NCBI GenBank assembly: GCA_018267215.1
Contig: JAFDYX010000013.1
Coordinates: 46,685-110,684, forward strand
DNA: 64,000 nucleotides
Reading direction: 5' to 3'
Source of the DNA: Bacteroidota bacterium
Lineage (GTDB): Bacteria; Bacteroidota; Bacteroidia; Cytophagales; Cyclobacteriaceae
Position 1 is the stretch's first letter, and each line of letters begins with the position of its first letter. The notes under the pieces were generated by a model. It had not been told where the DNA came from, made no database searches, and saw only the letters and a program-made list of their open reading frames with translations. Positions 37,802 to 50,173 of this stretch are shown piece by piece. Made by a program: the position numbers and the translations under genes.

Positions 37802-38626
37802 GTGGTAACCGATATAGACATTAACGATCTAAAGAGAATCACTGAGTTGATTCATACCAAGCATGGTTATGATTTTAGAAATTATGCTATGTCGTCTTTT
37901 AAAAGGCGCATCCTGCGCATTTTGGAGCTGAAGAACCTCACGATCGAGTCCTTGCTCAAACGCCTCAACGATTCGCCAGTCTTTATTAATGAGTTTTTGG
38001 ATGAGTTGACTGTAAACGTCACCGAAATGTTTCGCGACCCCGGGTTTTGGCGCGCCCTGCGCGATGAGATCATCCCTGATATATTACTCAATCACCAAAC
38101 TTTCAATATCTGGCACGCGGGCTGTTCTTCCGGGGAGGAAGTCCTCTCGATGGCAATTTTATTAAGAGAGATGGGCATTCACAATCAGGTAACTTTATAC
38201 GCTACCGATCTGGATGCCACTATTTTGGAAAAAGCCAAGGCCATCTCCTACCCGGTTAAAAACATGGAGATCAATGAAAAAAATTATATCCGCTACGAAG
38301 GCAAATGGTCGCTGCGCGATTATTGCAAAGAAGAAAACGGAAAAGTAACCTTCGACAAAGGGCTGCTGGCCAACGTTACCTTTCGCAGGCACGATCTGGT
38401 TTTAGGCGAAGTGTTTAACAAATTCGATCTCATTCTTTGCCGCAACGTAATGATTTACTTCAACCAAGCATTGCAAAACGAAGTGCTTAAAAAATTTCAT
38501 GCCAGCTTGTTCAAATACGGGTATTTGGCTATCGGCTCGAAAGAGTCGCTGATATGGTGCGATGTAGCCAACCGCTTTTTGGTGGTGAACAACGAGGAAA
38601 AAGTTTATAAGAAAATAAAAGATTAA
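37802..38626 (+). CDS. CheR-type protein-glutamate O-methyltransferase
   Basis: A 274-residue CheR. The N-terminal helical domain (about 5-75) includes SSFKRRILRI, and the SAM-binding motif AGCSSGEE is at about 106-113. The segment DLILCRNVMIYFN and the C-terminal YLAIGSKESLI are also typical. CheR adds methyl groups to glutamates of chemoreceptors, but no receptor with a methyl-accepting domain, CheA or CheW is present here. GTG start at 37802. The CheB gene follows 8 bp later, so this is the first gene of the cluster. Confidence 0.93.
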   Translation: MVTDIDINDLKRITELIHTKHGYDFRNYAMSSFKRRILRILELKNLTIESLLKRLNDSPVFINEFLDELTVNVTEMFRDPGFWRALRDEIIPDILLNHQTFNIWHAGCSSGEEVLSMAILLREMGIHNQVTLYATDLDATILEKAKAISYPVKNMEINEKNYIRYEGKWSLRDYCKEENGKVTFDKGLLANVTFRRHDLVLGEVFNKFDLILCRNVMIYFNQALQNEVLKKFHASLFKYGYLAIGSKESLIWCDVANRFLVVNNEEKVYKKIKD

Positions 38627-38634
38627 GCCGGGCG

Positions 38635-39228
38635 ATGAGCAGGTTCAATCTCAATAGCAGTTATAAGGCCGTTGTCATTGGAGGGTCGGCCGGGAGTTTT
38701 CAGGGCATCACTAAAATTTTGTCGCAGTTGCCCAAAACTTTTCCGCTGCCCATTATTATGTGCCTGCACCGGCTAAAGCATGTGCGCAATGGATTTGTGG
38801 AAGCGCTTTCTATTAAAAGTGTCTTCCCGGTTGTTGAGCCGTACGACAAAGAACAAATAAAAAAAGGAGGAGTTTATTTGGCTCCCTCCAACTACCACAT
38901 GTCAGTAGAACTGGGTAACTATTTTGCGATGAGTACCGAAGAGATGGTCAACAACTCGCGACCAGCTATTGATATTACCCTGAGTACGGCAGCGTATGTA
39001 TATCGCGAAAAACTGATCGGCATCCTCCTTTCCGGGGCTAACCGCGATGGCGGACTGGGGATGAAGCACATTAAAGACCGGGGCGGGCTTACCATCGTGC
39101 AAGAACCTTCTGAGTGTATGATTGACACCATGCCACGTGCAGCCCTGTCGCTCACTAAAATAGATTATGTACTGAAAACTGACGACATTGTAAACTTGAT
39201 GAACGAAATAGATAAGGCATACAGATGA
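38635..39228 (+). CDS. CheB-type methylesterase domain without receiver
   Basis: A 197-residue catalytic CheB domain. The triad is complete: Ser18 in VVIGGSAGS, His45 in IMCLHRLKH and Asp138 in LLSGANRDGG. Normal CheB proteins have an N-terminal receiver domain whose phosphorylation relieves inhibition; it is missing, so activity here cannot be controlled by CheA in that way. It overlaps the GAF gene by four bases (ATGA) and follows cheR after 8 bp, so the three are co-translated. Confidence 0.93.
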   Translation: MSRFNLNSSYKAVVIGGSAGSFQGITKILSQLPKTFPLPIIMCLHRLKHVRNGFVEALSIKSVFPVVEPYDKEQIKKGGVYLAPSNYHMSVELGNYFAMSTEEMVNNSRPAIDITLSTAAYVYREKLIGILLSGANRDGGLGMKHIKDRGGLTIVQEPSECMIDTMPRAALSLTKIDYVLKTDDIVNLMNEIDKAYR

Positions 39229-40007
39229 GAGAGCAAATTCAACTATTCCTGAAAGACACAAATAAGGTAAACCGCCTAGTAACGGTTTGCTTCTTTGGGT
39301 TTGTGTTGCTGACGGTTTATTTCCTGGCTACTTTAAAACACGATCTGGTTTTTAAAGGTGGAATGACAGACACACAACAAGCAGACTTTGTATTCTTTAA
39401 GCTCTTCGCCATCGTTGGGCTGACTTTTACTTTCTATTATCTGGCGTTGCATTACACCCGGAAATCAAAAAAGGAAGTCATAGTATATCTTGATAAAAAA
39501 CTTGAAAATGCTCATGCAGCTACCCATGGCACAGCAGGTGCAGAAGCAACCGGTAATTTTAATACCCAAACACTCCGCGACAAAATCAGCGAAGTCAATA
39601 AAAAAGAAGAAAAATGGCAAGCTGCCCTTAACAACATTTGCCACCAACTCAATGCCGGTCAGGGCGCACTGTATCTTTCCGGAAAAAATAAAAATTGGGA
39701 GATGAGAAATGGTTTTGCTGTAGTCTTAGAAGAAGGCGAAGCAAATCCTACCTTTCAGCCGGGCGAAGGGCTGATTGGGCAGACGGCCGCTTCCGGTAAA
39801 AGCCTTTATTTAGATGAACTGCCCGAAGGCTATGCCGCGCGCATTGCCAGCGGGTTAGGCAATGCATTGCCTAAATATCTTTTCATTTTTCCTGTAAAAA
39901 AAGAAAATGAGGTAATCGGTGTGATTGAGATAGCTACATTTTCAGATGTAAGCAGTACTTTGAGAACCCAGGTAGAAGAAGGTGTTCGTTTGTTGAGTGA
40001 AATATAA
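39225..40007 (+). CDS. Membrane-anchored GAF-domain protein
   Basis: A 260-residue protein with two membrane helices (about 19-38 and 58-78), a coiled-coil linker and one cytoplasmic GAF domain (about 130-258, with FQPGEGLIGQTAASGKSLY). There is no kinase, phosphatase or cyclase output. It may be a co-receptor for the sensor phosphatase encoded next, whose own GAF domain has the same FAEGLVGQAA block. ATGA overlap with cheB; the phosphatase gene follows 15 bp later. Confidence 0.85.
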   Translation: MREQIQLFLKDTNKVNRLVTVCFFGFVLLTVYFLATLKHDLVFKGGMTDTQQADFVFFKLFAIVGLTFTFYYLALHYTRKSKKEVIVYLDKKLENAHAATHGTAGAEATGNFNTQTLRDKISEVNKKEEKWQAALNNICHQLNAGQGALYLSGKNKNWEMRNGFAVVLEEGEANPTFQPGEGLIGQTAASGKSLYLDELPEGYAARIASGLGNALPKYLFIFPVKKENEVIGVIEIATFSDVSSTLRTQVEEGVRLLSEI

Positions 40008-40022
40008 TTGGAGACTTAGCGT

Positions 40023-43000
40023 ATGTTTAAAAATATCAAAATAAGAGCCAAGATCACAGGATTGATTGTAGCCATGGTAGCTGTAGCAGCCATCGTTATC
40101 TCTGTGTTTACTTACCGGATTAATGTCAGCGCACAACAAGATAAACTCCATGCCGGGCTGACGGCCGTGGCTGATCAGCAAGCTGAGTTGGTCAATCATT
40201 TTTTTGAACACATCAGCACCACGGCCAAGTTTTTACAACAATCCGAGTTGTTTAAAAACAAGATTATATCCGCACCCGACTCTGCCGGCAACACTTTAAA
40301 TTTCATTCGCGAAACTTATTCGTTTGATGCTACCTATCTTCTTAACAAAGACGGAAATGTAATTGCCTCTACCGATCCCGAAAACAAAAAAGGCAGCCTG
40401 CTCGCCAACCTCGACAAAGGCTTCTTCGATCGCTCCTCTTCATCACTGCAATTTAGCGCTGTCAGAAAGGAAAAAGAACAGTACTTTCTATATGCTGCCG
40501 TGCCGGTTGCCGATAAGCTATTTGCCTGCCGGATTGATCTCGATCATTTATACAAAAAACTAACCTCCAGCTACATTGCCAAATCCGATGAAAGTTATCT
40601 GGCACAAATAGACCCGGTATCAAAACATATTATTATTGTAAGCCCGTTGCGAAACGACCCCGGTGCATTTCTGAAACCCATTACCAACAACAGCGTTGCC
40701 AGCGGAGAAATTAAAAAGGCATTGGCAGGCGAAAATGGCCTGAGCATCAGCGAGGATTACCGAGGAACGGAAGCCTTGAAAATGTTTAGAAAAGTGGCGC
40801 AGCCCGGCTGGGGGTTAGTTGTAAAAATTGACACTGATGAACTGAACAGCCAAGGAAAAGAACTTTTAACCACTTACATCGGGTCAGCTATCGTGCTCAT
40901 ACTATTAGCTTGGGCTCTGGCTTCGCTGCTCTCGCGCTCGTTGATTGAGCCGCTCGACAACATGGGGCATACTTTAGACTTGGTGTCGCAGGGTGTGCTG
41001 CCTGAAAATATTGACACAGGCACCAAAGATGAGTTCGGATTAATGTCCGGCAAAGTAAACTCGCTTGTTCAAAACCTGAAGAGCAGTGCTGAGTTTGCCA
41101 AGAAAGTGGGCGAAGGCAAGTTAGACACGCCTTTCCAGCCTGTCAGCGAAAACGACACACTGGGTCAGGCGCTTCTGCACATGCGCGATGACCTCATTGA
41201 AAACGAGCACAAAGAAAAAGAGCGCAACTGGATTGTGCGGGGCGTGGCCGAGGCTGCCGAAATACTCCGCGCCCACGACTCAGTAGATGAGTTGGGCAAT
41301 GATGTGATTAGGTTTATAGCCGAACGGATCGGAGCTATACAAGGTGTATTTTATGATGTCAATCGCGATGAGCGCGAAGAAATGCTCATCGAAATCCGTG
41401 CCAGCTTTGCTTACAACCGCAAAAAATATTTAAAGAAAACTTTCCGCTTTGCCGAAGGCCTTGTAGGCCAGGCAGCCGCAGAAAAAGATATAGTGATGCG
41501 CACCGAAATACCCGATGAATACCTGTCCATCACTTCAGGTATTTTGGGCGAGCAAAAACCAAACTGCATCCTCGTTGCTCCACTTATCACCAACGAAGAA
41601 GTGTATGGCTTACTGGAGTTTGCCGGCATGAAAAAATTCGATGCCTTACAAGTAAAATTTGTGCAAGAGCTAAGTGTGATCTTAGCCCGCACCATCTACA
41701 CTATAAAAGTAAACGAACGCACCCGCAAGTTGCTGACCGAATCGCAACAACTCAGTAACGAACTTCAGGAAAAGCAGGAAGTACTGCGCCAGAATGCTGA
41801 AGAGATGCAGGCTACACAAGAAGAACTGAAACGGAGCAATGTGCTGTTGGAAGAGCAGATAGAAGAAGTGAACCAAACCCAAAAGCGCACACAGCTTTTA
41901 TTGGAAAATGCCTCTGAGGTGATCACCATCTACGAAGAAGATGGTACGATTCGCTACATCTCCCCTTCGGTAGAAACTATCTTGGGTTATGGCCAAAAAG
42001 AAATGCAGGGCAGCAATGACCTCTCCAAGGTACATCCCAACAGCGTGGAGATCGTTCAAAATCTTTTCATCAGTTTACGCGAGAAGCCGGACGAGAAGGT
42101 AACGGTACAATACGAATACCAAGCCAAAGACGGCAATTATATTTGGCTGGAAGCCACGGGCACCAACTTTATGAACAACCGCGCTATTCGTGGTTATATC
42201 CTGAACTCGCGCGACATTACCGAGCGCAGAAGAGCCGAGCAAGAGCAGCGCATGCGAAGCAAAATGCAAGCCCTCTCTGAAAATTCTCCTGACCTTATCA
42301 CACGGCTGGAGCAGGGTGCCATTTCGTATATTAATCCTACTATTCAGACCTACACAGGAAAATCGCCTCATCAGTTTTTGAACAAAAATGTACGCGAAAC
42401 AGAGTTGCACAATACTATCTTAGATCAATGGCTTTCTATTGTCGAGCAAGTAAATTCTACTAACGATACTATTGCGCAAGAAATGGATTTCCCCTCTGAG
42501 TTGGGCAATCGTGTGATGCAGGTAAATGCCATTCCTGAGTTTGATGACCAGAAAAATATAGAATCAGTATTGGTAGTTTCGCACGACATCACCGAGCGCA
42601 AAGAAATTGAGCTTGAAATTCAAAACAAGAACAAAAAAATCAACGACTCTATCAATTATGCCAAACGCATACAAAATGCGATTCTGCCCAACACACGGTT
42701 AATCAACAAAGTACTCTCCGATTCATTTATCCTTTACAAACCGCGCGATGTGGTGAGCGGAGATTTCCCTTGGTTTGTGCAGATTAAAAACGACATATTT
42801 ATTGCGGCTGTGGATTGCACCGGCCATGGTGTGCCGGGTGCGCTGCTCTCGCTGATCGGCTATTTCCTGCTGAACGATATTGTCCGCTCCAGAAAAATTA
42901 CTGAACCCGGAAAAATATTGGATTTATTGGATGAAGGGGTTACCCAAACACTGCGCCAAGATCAGGATGACTCGGCCACCAAAGACGGAATGGATATTGC

Positions 43001-43391
43001 CCTGTGCCGGATCAATACCGAAACACATACCGTAGAATATGCAGGCGCGCACCGTCCGCTCTACTACATGAAAGGTGGTGTAATGGATGAAATCAAAGGC
43101 AATAAATTCCCGATCGGTGGTGGTATCTATAAAAACCAGACCAACTTCACCACCACTAAACTGACACTCAGTAAGGGAGATTCATTTTATTTCAGTTCAG
43201 ACGGGTTCCCCGACCAGTTTGGCGGGCCGGAAGTGCGCAAATTTGGGCCCAAGAAAACAAGGGAAATCATCGAACGGATACACCAGTTGCAAATGACAGA
43301 GGCAATGCAGGTTTTCGATGAAGAATGGGAATCTTGGAAAGGAGAACACAAACAAACAGATGACGTATTATTAATAGGAATTAAATTTTAA
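40023..43391 (+). CDS. Transmembrane sensor with HAMP, GAF, two PAS and a SpoIIE-type phosphatase domain (SiaA-like)
   Basis: An 1122-residue protein. From the N-terminus: TM1 (about 10-30), an extracytoplasmic Cache-like sensor, TM2 (about 281-303), HAMP regions (about 304-395), GAF (about 400-560), a coiled coil (about 565-625), two PAS domains (about 625-740 and 745-860) and a PP2C/SpoIIE phosphatase (about 885-1122). Metal-binding acids are visible in VVSGDFPWF, AVDCTGHGVPGA and SSDGFPDQFGG, so catalysis is expected. In Pseudomonas, SiaA (Cache-HAMP-PP2C) dephosphorylates SiaC; this protein would take that role with extra sensing domains. The SiaB and SiaC genes follow directly. Confidence 0.9.
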   Translation: MFKNIKIRAKITGLIVAMVAVAAIVISVFTYRINVSAQQDKLHAGLTAVADQQAELVNHFFEHISTTAKFLQQSELFKNKIISAPDSAGNTLNFIRETYSFDATYLLNKDGNVIASTDPENKKGSLLANLDKGFFDRSSSSLQFSAVRKEKEQYFLYAAVPVADKLFACRIDLDHLYKKLTSSYIAKSDESYLAQIDPVSKHIIIVSPLRNDPGAFLKPITNNSVASGEIKKALAGENGLSISEDYRGTEALKMFRKVAQPGWGLVVKIDTDELNSQGKELLTTYIGSAIVLILLAWALASLLSRSLIEPLDNMGHTLDLVSQGVLPENIDTGTKDEFGLMSGKVNSLVQNLKSSAEFAKKVGEGKLDTPFQPVSENDTLGQALLHMRDDLIENEHKEKERNWIVRGVAEAAEILRAHDSVDELGNDVIRFIAERIGAIQGVFYDVNRDEREEMLIEIRASFAYNRKKYLKKTFRFAEGLVGQAAAEKDIVMRTEIPDEYLSITSGILGEQKPNCILVAPLITNEEVYGLLEFAGMKKFDALQVKFVQELSVILARTIYTIKVNERTRKLLTESQQLSNELQEKQEVLRQNAEEMQATQEELKRSNVLLEEQIEEVNQTQKRTQLLLENASEVITIYEEDGTIRYISPSVETILGYGQKEMQGSNDLSKVHPNSVEIVQNLFISLREKPDEKVTVQYEYQAKDGNYIWLEATGTNFMNNRAIRGYILNSRDITERRRAEQEQRMRSKMQALSENSPDLITRLEQGAISYINPTIQTYTGKSPHQFLNKNVRETELHNTILDQWLSIVEQVNSTNDTIAQEMDFPSELGNRVMQVNAIPEFDDQKNIESVLVVSHDITERKEIELEIQNKNKKINDSINYAKRIQNAILPNTRLINKVLSDSFILYKPRDVVSGDFPWFVQIKNDIFIAAVDCTGHGVPGALLSLIGYFLLNDIVRSRKITEPGKILDLLDEGVTQTLRQDQDDSATKDGMDIALCRINTETHTVEYAGAHRPLYYMKGGVMDEIKGNKFPIGGGIYKNQTNFTTTKLTLSKGDSFYFSSDGFPDQFGGPEVRKFGPKKTREIIERIHQLQMTEAMQVFDEEWESWKGEHKQTDDVLLIGIKF

Positions 43392-43423
43392 ATTTTAAAT
43401 TTCGGAATTTCAACCCCACAGCA

Positions 43424-43978
43424 ATGAACTATATCTATGAGTTGCACCGCACCATGATGACACAGAAGGTGATCTTGGTTTATGAAGGCGATTTTACGCA
43501 AGAAACTACCAAGTCAATTCTTTCCATGGCCGAGCGAAACCTTGACTCTTCGGGAGAAGATTCAGGTATCAAAAGAAAAGTCTTCAACGTTATGGTTGAG
43601 GCGCTTCAAAACATTGTTAAACACAGCAGCGAACAAGGCATGCGTGCCGGCTCCCTGCTGAGCAAGAGTGCTATCTTCCTGATTAGCAAGGATGACAAGC
43701 AATACTGCGTGATGACGGGCAACCCCATTGCCAAAGATAAAGTAGCGCAACTCACAAAAGACCTCAACGATTTAAACAGCAAAGACAAAGAAGGCCTGAA
43801 AGAAATGTATAAAGAGATTATTAAGAATACGCAAATCTCTGAAAAAGGTGGCGCGGGGCTTGGCTTTGTGGACATGGCTCGTAAGTCGGGTGAAAAACTG
43901 GAGTTCTTGTTTGCCAACATGGATGCCGAGCACGATTTCTTCTGTTTAAAAGTGAATATCGCGCGCGAAAAAGAATAA
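43424..43978 (+). CDS. SiaB-like protein kinase (anti-sigma-factor-type)
   Basis: A 184-residue GHKL-type ATPase. The N-box is VMVEALQNIVKHS with Glu59, Asn63 and His67, and the G-box GGAGLGF is at about 142-148. SiaB of Pseudomonas phosphorylates SiaC on a threonine. Size and N-box match SiaB rather than classical RsbW. It lies 33 bp after the phosphatase gene and 27 bp before the SiaC gene, giving the kinase-substrate-phosphatase set in order A-B-C. Confidence 0.87.
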   Translation: MNYIYELHRTMMTQKVILVYEGDFTQETTKSILSMAERNLDSSGEDSGIKRKVFNVMVEALQNIVKHSSEQGMRAGSLLSKSAIFLISKDDKQYCVMTGNPIAKDKVAQLTKDLNDLNSKDKEGLKEMYKEIIKNTQISEKGGAGLGFVDMARKSGEKLEFLFANMDAEHDFFCLKVNIAREKE

Positions 43979-44004
43979 TCTATAACTTATAAATACATCA
44001 AATC

Positions 44005-44367
44005 ATGGACATATTAAATTTAAAAGGAACTGAAGACACGCCAACAATTTTGCTGGATAAAAAAAACGGAATCTTTGAAATCAGTGGCCGGTCGCTGCCC
44101 GAAGACTCAGCCGAATTTTACAGACCCGTGCTGGAGTGGATCAAAGCCTATGGTGGCGAGCCAAACGCCAGTACCGACTTTACTTTTAAACTCGAATACT
44201 TCAACACCGCCTCTTCTAAACTGATACTCGATGTCCTCTCTGCCTTAGAAGATATTAAGGGAATGAAAATTCTCTGGTACTTCCATGATGACGATGAAGA
44301 TATGGAAGAAGCCGGCCAAGAGTTTTCAGAACTGGTTGAAGTACCGTTTGAATTTAAAACGTATTGA
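44005..44367 (+). CDS. SiaC-like phosphoprotein (DUF1987)
   Basis: A 120-residue protein with the SiaC hallmarks: TPTILLDKKNGIFEISGRSLPEDSAEFYRPVLEW at the N-terminus (conserved GRSxPEDxxxFY) and the phosphorylation block LEYFNTASSK. Thr68 of this block sits at the same position and context as the Thr68 that is phosphorylated in Pseudomonas SiaC (established for that protein, inferred here). Dephosphorylated SiaC activates the diguanylate cyclase SiaD in Pseudomonas. No GGDEF gene is found here; the next gene encodes an ABC transporter. Confidence 0.9.
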   Translation: MDILNLKGTEDTPTILLDKKNGIFEISGRSLPEDSAEFYRPVLEWIKAYGGEPNASTDFTFKLEYFNTASSKLILDVLSALEDIKGMKILWYFHDDDEDMEEAGQEFSELVEVPFEFKTY

Positions 44368-44442
44368 CACCCGTTATTCAGTTTAATACCCTGAAAAGGA
44401 TAAAAGAATTATCTTCTTTGTTTGCGATCATTAACTTAACCC

Positions 44443-47400
44443 ATGAGTGAGGAAATACTCAAGGCGCTCACACAGTTATTTGCCATCATCACCAAGCAAG
44501 ATGGCGGTGTAACAGAAAATGAGCGCCAGTTTGTTATCAATTTTTTTCAACAGGAACTTGACCAAGATACTGTTAAGGAATATCTCGTTTTGTACGATGA
44601 GTTCTCAGGCTACAACAAGCAGGGCAAGGGCGATGATGAAAAAAATAAGCTCACTTCGGTAAAAGATTCAGTAAAAACACTCGGCATCTGCAAGAAGATC
44701 AACAAGACACTGACGCAGAAGCAAAAGGTAGTAGTATTAACCAAACTGCTGGAACTGATCGGTTCCGATCAAAACTTTACACCTCAGCGAATTGAAATTA
44801 TCAACACAGTCTCTACTGTGTTTAATATTGACCAGGAAGAATACAAATTAGTTGAAACATTCATTATCGCACAGGATGTTGTTGAATTAAATTTTAAAGA
44901 CATTCTGCTCGCTAATTCAGCAGAATCTAAATCTGCCGAAAACCAAAAACACGTACACGCACACATTGAAGGTCAGCTGATTTTCATGCGGGTGAAAAGT
45001 GTGGACATGTACTTTACCAAGTACATCGGTGAGCAATTAAATATGCTCAACGGGTTCACCATGCAGCCCAACAAAGTGTATTTATTCTCGCATGGCAGCA
45101 CCATTAAAACACAAGATGGCGGAGCGCTCTATTATAGCGATCTGGTGGCTGATTTCAACGAAGAGATCAAAACCACCAAACTATCCTTCAATGCCAACAT
45201 CGAAGAGTTTATGTTTCCCAACGGAGCCATCGGTCTCCGCAATGTGGTTATTTCCGAAGGACCGGGAAAACTCATCGGCATCATGGGTGCCAGCGGAGCC
45301 GGAAAAACCACTTTGTTGCTTACGCTAGCTGGGCTGGAAAAGCCATCCAAAGGAGAAATCAAAATCAACGGCTTTGATATCAACACAGAGAAAGACAAGA
45401 TCGAGGGTGTCATCGGTTTTGTATCTCAAGATGATCTACTGATTGAAGAACTGACCGTTTATCAAAACCTTTATTACAACGCCAAACTATGCTTCTCCAA
45501 CTTCACTGAGAAGGAATTGCACGAGCGTGTGATGAACACCTTAGAGAACTTAGGTCTCGATCAGCGTAAAGACTTAACCGTAGGCAGCGTACTCGATAAA
45601 AAAATAAGCGGAGGACAGCGCAAACGCCTGAACATTGCCTTAGAGCTAATCCGCGAGCCCGCTATTTTGTTTTTGGATGAGCCCACTTCGGGACTTTCAT
45701 CACGTGATTCTGAAAACGTCATAGACTTACTGAAGGAACTTTCGCTGAAGGGAAAATTAATTTTTGTCGTCATCCACCAGCCTTCATCAGACATCTATAA
45801 AATGTTTGATAAGATGATCATCATGGATACAGGGGGCTACCCTGCTTACTATGGTTCACCGGTCGAGGCAGTTACTTACTTTAAGAAAGCAACCCACCAG
45901 GTGGACAGCAACCGCGGCCAATGCGAAACCTGCGGAAACGTAAACCCCGAGCAGATTTTCAGTATCGTAGAATCCAAGGTGGTGGATGAATACGGTCAAC
46001 CCACCACAAAACGAAAAATAACACCTCCTCAATGGCATGAGATGTATAAAACCAGGTTTAAACTAAACCTGATTGCCGATGTAAAGGAAACCCCTCCCAG
46101 CACTTTGCGCATCCCCAACCGGATCAAACAAACAGCCATCTTCACTACCCGCGACATGCTGGCAAAACTGAGCAACAAACAATACCTGCTCATTAATTTG
46201 CTGGAAGCCCCGCTGCTGGCCATCATCTTGGCCTTCATCATAAAATACAAAAGCGCCCCGGGTGGCAAAGAATATATTTTTCGGTTCAACGACAACTTCC
46301 CGGCATTTCTGCTGATGGCCATTATCGTCTCCTTGTTTATGGGCTTGACGGTGAGTGCAGAAGAAATCATCCGCGACAGAAAAATATTGAAACGCGAATC
46401 GTTCTTAAACCTGAGTTGGAACAGCTACCTCATTTCAAAACTCAATATTTTGTTTTTGTTATCAGCCATCCAAACGATCATGTTTGTGGTTGTCGGCAAC
46501 CTTATTTTAGAAATTGAAGGGATGACATTTGCCATGTGGCTGGTGCTATTCTCAACTTCGTGTTTTGCCAACGTGCTGGGCTTAAACATTTCCTCCGCTT
46601 TTAATTCGGCCGTAACAGTTTATGTAATGATCCCTCTCCTGCTCATTCCTCAAATGATTTTGAGCGGACTATTATTTAGCTTTGATAAGTTGAACAACAT
46701 CATCAGCACCAAAGGGAAAGTTCCTTTAGTGGCCGACTTCATGGCATCCCGGTGGGCCTACGAGGCCATGGCCGTTTACCAGTTTAAAAATAACGACTAC
46801 CAAGCACCTTTTTATTATTACGAACGCGAAGAGGCAAAGGCAGATTTTAAAGCAGCATATCTGGCAGACGAGTTAAAGAAGAGAAATTTGTTTGTGTTGG
46901 AGAATTTTGAAAGCAAGAATGATTCCATCAGAAAGATAGTAGATACCCAACTCGCCATCCTGCGCGATAATTTGCGTGATGAACCTTATCGACCGGGCTT
47001 TGAAAAGGTAAATGTGGATGAAGACTTTGTGCATCAAAAATATTCTAAAGCCAAAGGCATGATGCTCAACGCCTATTTTGAAGACTACCAAAAACACTAT
47101 CAAAAGATATACAACAGCAATGTAGATCTCATCGAAAAGAAAATGGCGTTTTTTGAAAAGAACGGGGTAAAAATCAATGACGAGAAAAACAAATATTTTA
47201 ACGAAAGTTTAAGCGACTTGGTAAAGAACGTATCCGTCAAAGAGCGGCTGCTGGAATATGATGGGAAACTAATTCAGCAACTAAACCCCATCTTTCAGGA
47301 AACAAAGCCTGCCAACCTGTTCGATTACCGCACCGCATTCTTTTTGCCTGAAAAAAATCTTCTAGGTGTAACCGTAAGCACTTATTTATTCGATATTTTG

Positions 47401-47526
47401 GTAATTTGGCTGATGGCCGGGTTTTGTTATCTGGCTTTGCATCAGGAATGGCTGAGAAGGCTGGTAAACCTGTTTGGAAACATGAAAATTCCGAATAAGG
47501 TAACGGTGCCTTTCCGAAGGAAATAA
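44443..47526 (+). CDS. ABCG-type ABC transporter fused to an N-terminal TerB-like domain
   Basis: A 1027-residue half-transporter. Residues about 1-140 form an all-helical TerB-like domain, and 150-240 a linker domain with beta character. The ATPase domain has Walker A GASGAGKTT at about 281-289, signature SGGQRKRLN at about 389-397 and Walker B FLDEPTSGL. The permease part has clustered helices at about 580-760, a large soluble segment (about 765-985) with coiled-coil character, and a last helix (about 985-1005). The ATPase-then-membrane order and LDEPTSGL are of the ABCG (White) type, likely an exporter. It lies 75 bp behind the SiaC gene, so the partner switch may gate it. Confidence 0.9.
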   Translation: MSEEILKALTQLFAIITKQDGGVTENERQFVINFFQQELDQDTVKEYLVLYDEFSGYNKQGKGDDEKNKLTSVKDSVKTLGICKKINKTLTQKQKVVVLTKLLELIGSDQNFTPQRIEIINTVSTVFNIDQEEYKLVETFIIAQDVVELNFKDILLANSAESKSAENQKHVHAHIEGQLIFMRVKSVDMYFTKYIGEQLNMLNGFTMQPNKVYLFSHGSTIKTQDGGALYYSDLVADFNEEIKTTKLSFNANIEEFMFPNGAIGLRNVVISEGPGKLIGIMGASGAGKTTLLLTLAGLEKPSKGEIKINGFDINTEKDKIEGVIGFVSQDDLLIEELTVYQNLYYNAKLCFSNFTEKELHERVMNTLENLGLDQRKDLTVGSVLDKKISGGQRKRLNIALELIREPAILFLDEPTSGLSSRDSENVIDLLKELSLKGKLIFVVIHQPSSDIYKMFDKMIIMDTGGYPAYYGSPVEAVTYFKKATHQVDSNRGQCETCGNVNPEQIFSIVESKVVDEYGQPTTKRKITPPQWHEMYKTRFKLNLIADVKETPPSTLRIPNRIKQTAIFTTRDMLAKLSNKQYLLINLLEAPLLAIILAFIIKYKSAPGGKEYIFRFNDNFPAFLLMAIIVSLFMGLTVSAEEIIRDRKILKRESFLNLSWNSYLISKLNILFLLSAIQTIMFVVVGNLILEIEGMTFAMWLVLFSTSCFANVLGLNISSAFNSAVTVYVMIPLLLIPQMILSGLLFSFDKLNNIISTKGKVPLVADFMASRWAYEAMAVYQFKNNDYQAPFYYYEREEAKADFKAAYLADELKKRNLFVLENFESKNDSIRKIVDTQLAILRDNLRDEPYRPGFEKVNVDEDFVHQKYSKAKGMMLNAYFEDYQKHYQKIYNSNVDLIEKKMAFFEKNGVKINDEKNKYFNESLSDLVKNVSVKERLLEYDGKLIQQLNPIFQETKPANLFDYRTAFFLPEKNLLGVTVSTYLFDILVIWLMAGFCYLALHQEWLRRLVNLFGNMKIPNKVTVPFRRK

Positions 47527-47530
47527 TTGT

Positions 47531-47560
47531 TTTGTAACCATGATTGAATTTCTAATTTTG
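47531..47560 (+). promoter_or_regulatory. Promoter of the lipoprotein pair (TTTG-N18-TAATTTTG)
   Basis: TTTG at 47531-47534 and TAATTTTG at 47553-47560 are 18 bp apart, close to the Bacteroidota consensus. Transcription would begin near 47566, ahead of the ATG at 47577. Confidence 0.6.
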
Positions 47561-47576
47561 TAACCAACAATACATT

Positions 47577-48473
47577 ATGAAAAGCGTAATACTCGCATTC
47601 GCTACTGCCCTTCTGCTGGTTGCGTGCGGAAAATCTAAAAAACCGGATGAACAGGCTTTCCTTAATAGCCTCGACTCAACCAAAAAAGGCCCTTCCATAG
47701 ATGAAGAGGTTATCAACAGCATACTCCAGCAAATACCCAGCCCGCTGGAAATCTCTGTTCTCTTAAAAGAGTCGGGAACCAAATACAATTTTTCATTGCT
47801 CAATACGCCCGACAACCTGTCGAAATACAACAGCAACTTTAAGAAAGCACTTAACCTGGGCGTGTATGGAACAGACTTGGGCTACACCAACATTTACCAG
47901 CAAAACAAAGACGGCATCAAATATCTGGCTTCTATTAAATCATTAGCGAACGAATTAAATATCGGCCAGTTTTTTGATATAGAAACTATCGGCCGGTTGG
48001 CCACCAACAGTAAAAACTTAGACTCGCTATTGTTAATTACTACTGAAAATTTCAATAGTATCAATCGTTATTTACAAACTCAGGGACGCGCTAATTTGAG
48101 CGTATTGTTGCTAACCGGTGGATGGTTAGAAGCTATGCAGATTACCTGTCAGGTTGCCTCGAAAGATCTTAAAAATAAAGAATTGAGAGAAAAAATTGGC
48201 GAACAGAAAATTATTCTGGAGCAAATCCTGCTTTTATTCGGTTTCTATAAAGAAGACGAAAATATGGCATCGTTATTGAAAGACCTCACCGACCTGAAAG
48301 CAGCGTTTGATAAAATTAACATTACCTACACCTACAAAGAATCTACCATGGAAGTAGTGAATGGGGTGGCCGTTATCAAAGACAACAGTACCACAACTGT
48401 GGATATTACCGATAAAGATGTGCAGGCTATTACCAGTATAGCCAACACGATAAGAATTAAAATAGTCAGTTAA
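47577..48473 (+). CDS. Lipoprotein, helical, unknown function
   Basis: A 298-residue protein. The signal peptide ends in the lipobox LLVACG, with Cys17 probably lipidated. The mature part is mostly helical (LLLITTENFNSINRYLQTQ and similar), with no enzyme motif. It follows the ABC transporter gene after 50 bp with its own promoter. I cannot assign a family, but its position beside the signalling genes makes a role with the transporter or sensor possible. Confidence 0.8.
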   Translation: MKSVILAFATALLLVACGKSKKPDEQAFLNSLDSTKKGPSIDEEVINSILQQIPSPLEISVLLKESGTKYNFSLLNTPDNLSKYNSNFKKALNLGVYGTDLGYTNIYQQNKDGIKYLASIKSLANELNIGQFFDIETIGRLATNSKNLDSLLLITTENFNSINRYLQTQGRANLSVLLLTGGWLEAMQITCQVASKDLKNKELREKIGEQKIILEQILLLFGFYKEDENMASLLKDLTDLKAAFDKINITYTYKESTMEVVNGVAVIKDNSTTTVDITDKDVQAITSIANTIRIKIVS

Positions 48474-48482
48474 TAGCAATAC

Positions 48483-48917
48483 ATGTATATGAAAAAGATA
48501 ACCCTTTCCATTTTTTTAATCTCATTGATCGCGTTAAGCACACCACTGGCCAGCCAGTGCAATTCAGAAAATTTTGCCAGCGCCTGCATCCCTAAGTTAG
48601 CAAGTGGTTTTAATTTCCTGAAAAGCTACAAAGTAGATGGCGAAGGTGGCGCAAAAGAAAAAGTTGAATACAGCTACGTGTTCACTAAAGGAACACAATA
48701 TATGATTAACCTGTGTGCCAGCGGCACGGCTACAGACGGCATTGTGGTAACCATTTTTGATTCAGGAAGAAATAAAGTAGCCTCCAGCAAAATCAATGGC
48801 CAGTTTATCAGTGCCATTGCCTATCCTTGCAATGCTACCGGCATCTATTACATTCAATACACCTTTGACGGGGCAGGCGGGAAATGTGGCGGCAGTGCGC
48901 TGGGGTTCAAACGATAA
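48483..48917 (+). CDS. Small secreted protein with conserved cysteines, unknown function
   Basis: A 144-residue exported protein with a signal peptide of about 25 residues (IALSTPLASQC end). The mature part is beta-rich with several Cys (QCN, ACIP, NLCAS, YPCNATG, GGKCGG) that could pair in the periplasm, and reads like a small PPC-type beta sandwich. The start could be the ATG at 48483 or that at 48489. It follows the lipoprotein gene after 9 bp and is closed by a terminator. Confidence 0.75.
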   Translation: MYMKKITLSIFLISLIALSTPLASQCNSENFASACIPKLASGFNFLKSYKVDGEGGAKEKVEYSYVFTKGTQYMINLCASGTATDGIVVTIFDSGRNKVASSKINGQFISAIAYPCNATGIYYIQYTFDGAGGKCGGSALGFKR

Positions 48918-48940
48918 TCCATAAAAACTTGATGTATTCA

Positions 48941-48969
48941 AAACCTCGCCAAAGCGGGGTTTTTTTTTA
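48941..48969 (+). terminator. Terminator after the secreted protein gene
   Basis: AAACCTCGC (48941-48949) pairs with GCGGGGTTT (48954-48962), with one T-G pair and a CAAA loop, followed by a long T-run. It separates the lipoprotein pair from the regulator gene. Confidence 0.8.
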
Positions 48970-49012
48970 TACATTTAAATTTTAAAAACACTGCTCACAA
49001 CAAACCTGCCCT

Positions 49013-50173
49013 ATGCCAAAAATACTGATCATTGAAGACGAGGTCAGCATTCGTTCAGTTTTGAAAGAAATACTGAAAGACCAAAAAGATATGAAGTTGG
49101 AGATAGACGAAGCACGCGATGGGCAAGAGGGGCTGGCTAAATTAGAGTCAGAACATTTTGATGTAGCCTTCTGCGATATCAAAATGCCCAAAATGGATGG
49201 CATGGAAGTATTGCAAAAAGCCAAAGCCAAGGAAATAGACACCGCGTTTATCATGATCTCCGCACATGGATCAACCGAACTGGCCGTAGATGCCGTGAAA
49301 AACGGAGCTTACGATTTTCTGCAGAAACCACCTGACCTGAACAGGTTATTGATCACCTTACGCAACGCATTAGACAAAACAACTTTAGTGCAGGAAACAC
49401 ATCGCCTACGAAAAAAGATTTCTACACTCCATTCTATCGTAGGCAAATCAACCGCACTACAGGAAGTATTTTCCATGATAGAAAAGGTGGCTCCTACCGA
49501 TGCACGTGTGCTTATTACCGGGCCCAACGGCTCAGGCAAAGAGTTGGTGGCACGGCAACTGCACGAGCAAAGTAAACGCGCCAATCATCCTTTTGTTGAA
49601 GTAAACTGTGCTGCCATACCGGCCGAGCTCATTGAAAGCGAACTCTTCGGACACGAAAAAGGTGCCTTTACATCTGCCGTCAAGCAACGGATCGGTAAAT
49701 TTGAACAAGCAGAAAAGGGTACGTTATTTCTAGATGAAATTGGAGATATGAGTCTTTCTGCACAAGCAAAGGTGCTTCGGGCTTTGCAGGAAAATAAAAT
49801 TACACGGGTAGGTGGCGAAAAAGATATTTTGGTTGATGTACGAGTACTGGCCGCTACCAATAAAGACCTGAAAAAAGAAATTGCAGAAAACCGTTTTCGC
49901 GAAGATCTGTATCACCGTCTCTCTGTGATTGTAATAAAAGTTCCTTCGCTGGCCGACCGCAAAGAAGACATTCCTTTGTTGGTTGACAAATTTTTAACCG
50001 AAACAGCTACAAATTATGGTATTAAAAGAAAGGAAATTTCTTCAAAAGCAATTGAAGCGTTGCAGGAGCACCCATGGACGGGCAATGTGCGCGAACTGAA
50101 GAATGTTATTGAGCGGCTTGTGATTATGTGCGAAGGCACAATCCGGCCAGAGGATGTAAGAAAATATCTTTAG
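49013..50173 (+). CDS. Sigma-54 response regulator without DNA-binding domain
   Basis: A 386-residue protein. The receiver domain (1-120) has the acidic pocket Glu8-Asp9 and the phospho-acceptor Asp55 (VAFCDIKMP). The AAA+ domain (about 140-370) carries Walker A GPNGSGKE at 170-177, the sigma-54 contact loop GAFTSA at 217-222, FLDEIGDMS, and the arginine region NRFREDLYHRL. The chain ends at EDVRKYL just after the AAA+ lid; the Fis-type helix-turn-helix of NtrC is absent. It could activate sigma-54 promoters from solution, as do FlgR of Helicobacter or CtcC of Chlamydia. The partner kinase is not adjacent. Confidence 0.93.
   Translation: MPKILIIEDEVSIRSVLKEILKDQKDMKLEIDEARDGQEGLAKLESEHFDVAFCDIKMPKMDGMEVLQKAKAKEIDTAFIMISAHGSTELAVDAVKNGAYDFLQKPPDLNRLLITLRNALDKTTLVQETHRLRKKISTLHSIVGKSTALQEVFSMIEKVAPTDARVLITGPNGSGKELVARQLHEQSKRANHPFVEVNCAAIPAELIESELFGHEKGAFTSAVKQRIGKFEQAEKGTLFLDEIGDMSLSAQAKVLRALQENKITRVGGEKDILVDVRVLAATNKDLKKEIAENRFREDLYHRLSVIVIKVPSLADRKEDIPLLVDKFLTETATNYGIKRKEISSKAIEALQEHPWTGNVRELKNVIERLVIMCEGTIRPEDVRKYL

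Follow-up and report, generated by a model that had tools for sequence, protein, structure and literature searches.

A conserved gene set of the Bacteroidota seems to join a SiaABC-type phospho-switch to a membrane transporter rather than to cyclic di-GMP (c-di-GMP) signaling, and in some Bacteroidota chemotaxis-type methylation enzymes probably tune the sensor of the switch. We studied this set as nine genes in a 64,000-nucleotide stretch (the window) of a Cyclobacteriaceae genome (GenBank GCA_018267215.1, contig JAFDYX010000013.1, positions 46,685 to 110,684, forward strand). Phosphate-based switches of this kind are known from biofilm control in Pseudomonas. If the proposal is true, an ABC exporter would join the processes under phospho-switch control, and a PP2C phosphatase would be subject to adaptation in the style of chemoreceptors. 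The proposal offers a concrete candidate client for SiaC in a class, Bacteroidia, where GGDEF domains were found in just 7 of 295 sampled genomes, as well as a candidate CheR/CheB substrate in a genome where no methyl-accepting chemotaxis protein (MCP) was found. The nine genes and the sites within them are as follows.

37802..38626, + strand: CheR methyltransferase (Pfam CheR, E = 7.1e-43; CheR_N, 1.3e-7).
38635..39228, + strand: CheB methylesterase, catalytic domain alone, 197 residues (CheB_methylest, 1.8e-48, residues 13-187).
39225..40007, + strand: TM-GAF protein (GAF_2, 5e-7; two membrane helices by eye).
40023..43391, + strand: SiaA-like receptor phosphatase, by domain matches weak Cache, HAMP, GAF, coil, PAS, PAS and PP2C (SpoIIE); the PP2C part matches 6k4e.
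41709..41876, + strand: SiaA coil, residues 563-618, RQNAEEMQATQEEL, linked to CheB at the genome level.
41799-41816, + strand: EEMQAT, residues 593-598 of SiaA, a candidate methylation site with an MCP-like consensus.
43424..43978, + strand: SiaB-family protein kinase (NF038262, 180 bits; 6kko_A, 1.4e-12).
44005..44367, + strand: SiaC phosphoprotein (PF09345, 1.3e-38; 6kko_C, 7.4e-14).
44203-44211, + strand: N67, T68 and A69 of SiaC, by residue numbering against P. aeruginosa SiaC.
44443..47526, + strand: TerB, a beta-rich middle region (by eye) and an ABCG-type transporter half, extended by a long additional C-terminal region (TerB, ABC_tran, ABC2_membrane).
47577..48473, + strand: conserved lipoprotein (family near 131 of 168 ABC genes).
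48483..48917, + strand: small secreted protein (two clusters by sequence, one near 75 and the other near 38 of 168 ABC genes).

We found SiaC (PF09345) in 173 of the 295 class genomes. The TerB-ABCG protein, called at E <= 1e-80 after scoring the two best candidates in each genome, was found in 157. Both were present in 154 genomes, SiaC only in 19, the ABC gene only in 3 (G022, G107 and G262) and neither in 119 (Fisher p 2e-57, kinship ignored). A preliminary description of the locus, made from the sequence of the window, had proposed a switch linked to a transporter and to CheR/CheB; the transporter part of this proposal holds class-wide, while the CheR/CheB part does not extend beyond a subset of lineages. 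The 98 genomes sampled from the window's taxonomic order, 11 of which are also in the class sample, divided into 63 with both genes, 4 with SiaC only, 1 with the ABC gene only and 30 with neither. Within family f1 both genes were present in 4 genomes and absent from 3, and within f85 present in 2 and absent from 4; these are the two families of that sample where both genes vary, and they do so jointly (exact p 0.002).

The two genes are also frequently neighbors. Among 96 ABC loci flanked by 5 kb or more in both directions, SiaC was found within 5 kb of the ABC gene in 44 cases, SiaB in 41, the lipoprotein in 78 and the small protein in 67. In those 44, SiaC was convergent with the ABC gene on its downstream side in 26 and preceded it on the same strand in 17, with 1 other arrangement, and since it occurs in several orientations the adjacency has survived or re-formed through rearrangement. 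At least 22 genomes of the window's order have SiaC upstream of the ABC gene on the same strand, the gap being 63-215 bases in 17 and 694-1124 bases in 5, where the ABC match begins inside the protein. On a FastTree phylogeny of 147 SiaCs, ABC linkage changed 13 times compared with a shuffled mean of 48.8 (300 shuffles, minimum 39), with the unlinked label of part of the loci set from coordinates. Taken together, these results make a functional linkage of SiaC to the transporter very likely, and direct binding of SiaC to the ABC protein may be regarded as moderately likely.

The gene order itself recurs. The preliminary description had proposed looking for it in other Bacteroidota, and we found the nine-gene order CheR-CheB-TMGAF-SiaA-SiaB-SiaC-TerB/ABCG-lipoprotein-small protein at 22 others, and the order from CheR through the ABC gene at 28, of 163 unique full-length ABC genes; these loci were not sampled at random but picked among the closest matches to the ABC protein of the window, and the window's own copy, merged with its genome locus, is excluded from both counts. 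Among the carriers are Cesiribacteraceae YIM B00369 (L173), Flexithrix dorotheae (L175; Cytophagales) and metagenome-assembled genomes (MAGs) of Saccharicrinis (L180) and Breznakibacter (L183). Of 20 ABC loci fetched from the window's order, 18 had both SiaC and SiaB, and 14 had the full run CheR-CheB-TMGAF-SiaA-SiaB-SiaC-ABC; in relatives, too, the TM-GAF gene is placed between CheB and SiaA. We also observed a tandem CheR duplicate before CheB in four Sia-ABC operons (L086, L180, L183 and L201), and five loci (L283, L284, L285, L286 and L287; families f45, f65 and f70) where CheR-CheB stands with a doubled SiaB-SiaC and no full-length TerB-ABCG gene occurs in the surrounding sequence, a further kind of CheR/CheB-Sia grouping.

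The Sia proteins of the window could be placed by both structure and profile comparison. The solved structures that they matched are those of the P. aeruginosa Sia proteins: 6k4e for the PP2C part of SiaA (2.8e-32, metal-binding acidic motifs aligned), 6kko_A for SiaB (1.4e-12, catalytic Glu aligned) and 6kko_C for SiaC (7.4e-14). SiaB scored 180 bits on SiaB_fam_kinase NF038262 (cut-off 85) and SiaC 132 bits on PF09345 (cut-off 24.5). Because none of the NCBIfam equivalog cut-offs was reached (SiaA 221 against 700, SiaB 84 against 225, SiaC 84 against 150), we regard all three as family members and not as close copies of Sia proper. The window's SiaC reads N67-T68-A69, its Thr68 being identical in number to the phospho-acceptor T68 of P. 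aeruginosa SiaC (PMC7647112); the catalytic Glu61 of P. aeruginosa SiaB is a prediction (PMC7647112). Residue 69 is Ala in the window and Ser in P. aeruginosa, where S69 is among the residues contacting SiaD (PMC8457831). Ala69 was found in 40 of 41 members of a SiaC clade that is entirely ABC-linked and Ser in 103 of the 106 other SiaCs, the FastTree support being 0.0 for the 41-member clade and 0.826 for a 40-member subset. In two loci, SiaB and SiaC, kinase and presumed substrate, are fused into a single open reading frame (ORF; L064 1486-2451, L071 1486-2454).

The window thus resembles SiaABCD of P. aeruginosa in its PP2C receptor phosphatase, SiaB kinase, SiaC with Thr68 and A-B-C order, and differs in that no SiaD or GGDEF gene was found and an ABCG transporter stands in SiaD's place, in the GAF-coil-PAS-PAS make-up of SiaA, and in the presence of CheR/CheB in the operon. 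GGDEF matches numbered 0 in the source genome (control genomes positive; assembly 96.5% complete) and occurred in 7 of 295 class genomes, 5 of them over the cut-off; a regular expression for GGDEF-like ORFs, without a positive control in those sequences, found none in the scanned loci, including the 96 ABC loci. The arrangement that the preliminary description had named as contrary to its proposal, a GGDEF gene adjoining SiaC with the ABC gene mostly absent, is not what these genomes hold, given an ABC gene in 154 of 173 SiaC genomes. Because of the class-wide SiaC-ABC link and the near-absence of GGDEF, the switch here most likely drives a transporter and not a diguanylate cyclase.

We also examined what CheR and CheB might act upon. 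The source genome has one CheR match and one CheB match, and the MCP signaling domain PF00015 was absent from it and present in 1 of 18 genomes searched (control genomes positive). The EEMQAT of the SiaA coil fits Glx-Glx-x-x-Ala-Ser/Thr, the methylation consensus of E. coli MCPs. This motif and the CheR and CheB domains are shared with Che/MCP pathways, whereas the window's genome yielded no MCP signaling domain and its CheB lacks a receiver domain (none matched in Pfam or NCBIfam). A coil profile, seeded from loci around ABC genes that were mostly CheR/CheB-linked and including uninspected weak matches in large ORFs, matched 37 of 295 class genomes; all 37 were CheB-positive, compared with 60 of 258 genomes without the coil (p 5e-21), and the association was also seen within families among SiaC-positive genomes (Cochran-Mantel-Haenszel z 5.2). 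CheB and a coil were no more than 6 kb apart in 17 of the 37 genomes, where the two ORFs differed in length; random placement gave a mean of 0.48 and a maximum of 4 (2000 runs; all listed coil matches and the CheB matches of those genomes entered the count). The Glu pair was constant in 41 of 41 aligned coil stretches from 30 loci, with a model trained on motif-bearing coils. Two further ORFs of the source genome (L323 1017-2999 on C20 and L324 3-1493 on C26) carry the coil, with EELQAT/EELSAT, in architectures read by eye as HAMP-GAF-coil-PAS and HAMP-GAF-coil; inspection by eye revealed no output domain, and both look like MCP-like receptors without an MCP signaling domain.

In Bacillus cereus, RsbM has been reported to methylate the RsbK helix that follows HAMP-GAF (PMC4574943). 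That system (sigma B) is similar in having a methyltransferase, a post-HAMP-GAF helix and a non-MCP receptor feeding a partner switch; it differs in that RsbK, a histidine kinase, works by way of RsbY, the output is a sigma factor and no methylesterase is known to be involved. Placed after GAF, with an MCP-like motif and a CheB association, the SiaA coil is a candidate methylatable helix as in RsbK, and by this analogy CheR/CheB may methylate it; we consider it rather likely that they act on it.

We infer the following mechanism, which appears fairly probable as a whole: a SiaABC switch with an ABCG-type exporter as its output, SiaA being tuned by CheR/CheB methylation of the coil. SiaB would phosphorylate SiaC at Thr68, and the SiaA-like receptor phosphatase, driven by HAMP, GAF and PAS sensing, would dephosphorylate it. 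In one of its two states SiaC would dock on the ABC protein, at its cytosolic TerB/N-terminal region, and set transport activity, up or down; the lipoprotein and the small secreted protein would be periplasmic partners of the transporter. Glutamates in the EEMQAT coil, which lies between SiaA's GAF and PAS domains, would be methylated reversibly by CheR and CheB, and this would amount to a chemoreceptor-like adaptation step. A broader picture is possible and more tentative: the class Bacteroidia may largely run a c-di-GMP-free SiaABC with a TerB-ABCG client, to which some lineages would add CheR/CheB methylation of a non-MCP coil (RQNxEEMxATQEE) common to GAF receptors and SiaA, making a methyl-accepting partner switch over transport with genuine covalent adaptation.

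Several observations weigh against this mechanism, and they are given here with the explanations that compete with it. The competitor that survives best, although we consider it unlikely, is that CheR/CheB mainly modify other GAF-coil receptors and that their operon position merely ties two pathways. Because two other receptors of the source genome carry the coil, SiaA need not be the main CheR/CheB substrate, and the single CheR may serve three coil proteins. Furthermore, in L086, L180 and L183 the coil of SiaA has lost EExxAT while the neighboring receptor of the cluster keeps EEMQAT. The motif is nevertheless retained by SiaA in 22 of 28 coil-type CheR/CheB-linked cases, with EEMQST of L304/L305 scored as intact. 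The other 6 lack it, and of four coil-type SiaAs without CheR/CheB in the fetched flank one (L316) keeps it, so that the contrast reaches a Fisher p of 0.057. This comparison leaves out L191 and L303 (cut by contig ends), L093 and L100, which are two further CheR/CheB-linked SiaAs without the coil, and the second PP2C ORF of L315 (no coil). An earlier contrast of motif-bearing SiaAs, 13 of 16 linked against 1 of 14 unlinked, was dropped because most unlinked SiaAs have another architecture without the coil; the comparison confined to coil-type SiaAs is the weaker of the two.

Turning to the transporter, SiaABC and the ABC protein might instead be co-regulated within one envelope or adhesion program, with SiaC acting on another, unlinked partner. 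Many SiaC-SiaB pairs are distant from the ABC gene, up to 40 SiaC matches were counted per genome in the window's order, and 52 of the 96 ABC loci have no SiaC inside 5 kb. Since the ABC gene is missing from 19 of 173 SiaC genomes and numerous SiaC copies lie far from it, SiaC has other clients besides the ABC protein. No SiaC was found in the 20-kb stretches around the two other TerB-ABCG paralogues of the source genome, L040 and L041, and the one SiaC found in that genome may serve all three. Neighborhood and co-occurrence are, moreover, no proof of binding. Co-regulation sits poorly with a near-obligate co-occurrence, with adjacency in several orientations including SiaC directly before the ABC gene in the window's order, and with ABC-linked SiaC lineages that form a largely separate set; we judge it distinctly unlikely.

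Slightly less probable still is that the EEMxAT coil is a common coiled-coil linker unrelated to methylation. Such a coil composition forms easily, and no MCP was present among 15 structure matches of the coil at E <= 1, so that no homology to MCP chains was detected. The motif Ala was found in 29 and the Thr in 33 of the 41 stretches, and matches in family f45 read EELAVT or similar. The coil-CheB association also includes related genomes, and uninspected weak matches in large ORFs. A mere linker sits poorly with 37 of 37 coil genomes being CheB-positive with covariation within families, with the proximity of coil and CheB in separate ORFs and with the constant Glu pair. Finally, a SiaD-like c-di-GMP route via an unlinked diguanylate cyclase, although c-di-GMP is the sole characterized SiaC output met in the literature examined (PMC8457831), is ruled out for practical purposes by the GGDEF counts (0 in the genome, 7 of 295 in the class) and is extremely improbable.

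The proposed client is an ABC protein with TerB (28.4 bits, cut-off 24.4), ABC_tran and ABC2_membrane matches. Like the half transporters ABCG1, ABCG2 and CDR1, which are among its best solved relatives (E down to 4e-65), it has a nucleotide-binding domain and then an ABC2 membrane domain within one chain; in contrast to them it adds TerB, the middle region, the long C-terminal region and the lipoprotein and small-protein partners. An FHA domain (a phospho-Thr reader) was suspected by eye from LNG...GS.IR in the middle region, without profile support: no Pfam match was obtained at residues about 150-240 even at E 10. Among the 80 best matches to the ABC protein, the full-length ones carry Bacteroidota labels, the exception being L177, which is a 5.9-kb contig from a Planktophila MAG. 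The two paralogues of the source genome (L040 at C21:47458-50511 and L041 at C24:42678-45740) are 48% and 44% identical to the window's protein, and one of them is preceded by the lipoprotein family.

Clustering of the ORFs near 168 ABC genes, which were not deduplicated, gave the lipoprotein at 131, SiaC at 82, SiaB at 75 and the small protein at 75 plus 38, followed by GAF/SiaA (59), CheB (33) and CheR (31). The representatives of two unassigned clusters (55 and 44) lie, by their coordinates, antisense inside ABC genes. The lipoprotein and the small protein matched no family at E <= 0.01 and no convincing fold; Cys17 of the lipoprotein is invariant in 25 aligned sequences.

Among the papers that searches of the open-access literature listed, with most subscription papers outside their scope, we recognized none that connects transporters or CheR/CheB with SiaC phosphoproteins, or that describes these phosphoproteins in Bacteroidota, in agreement with the earlier suggestion that the hybrid pathway was not known to be described. 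DUF1987 proteins have been described as widespread and as probably modulating adjacent proteins (PMC8457831), and STAS partner switches of Campylobacterota are covered elsewhere (PMC9239204). A term search of a survey of bacterial PP2C phosphatases (PMC12088040) met no mention of SiaA, CheR or GAF. The "SiaC" of a Bacteroidetes paper (PMC5561996) is a sialidase and not the phosphoprotein.

The nine genes are followed in the window by two further features.

48940..48963, + strand: terminator-like hairpin and T run, the probable end of the unit (consensus match only).
49013..50173, + strand: response regulator with a receiver and a sigma-54 activator domain, 386 residues (domain matches).

The preliminary description had given ten same-strand genes with short gaps and named domains. 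All ten ORFs do lie on the + strand at 37802-50173, with gaps of 8, -4, 15, 32, 26, 75, 50, 9 and 95 bases in order, and the profile matches agree; for the SiaA-like protein HAMP, GAF, both PAS domains and SpoIIE stood, whereas Cache fell below threshold (dCache_1 23.4 bits, cut-off 45). The sigma-54 regulator, for which no C-terminal DNA-binding family was matched, had been counted as the tenth member and is excluded. The hairpin at 48940-48963 separates genes 9 and 10, although such sites occur here no more often than in shuffled sequence (16, with a shuffled mean of 15.5) and neither promoter-scan nor terminator-scan matches rose above the shuffled level, and no homologue of the regulator (phmmer E <= 1e-30) was found beside full-length ABC genes in the other loci examined. 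Because of the hairpin and the absence of such a homologue, the conserved unit is taken to be the nine genes at 37802-48917.

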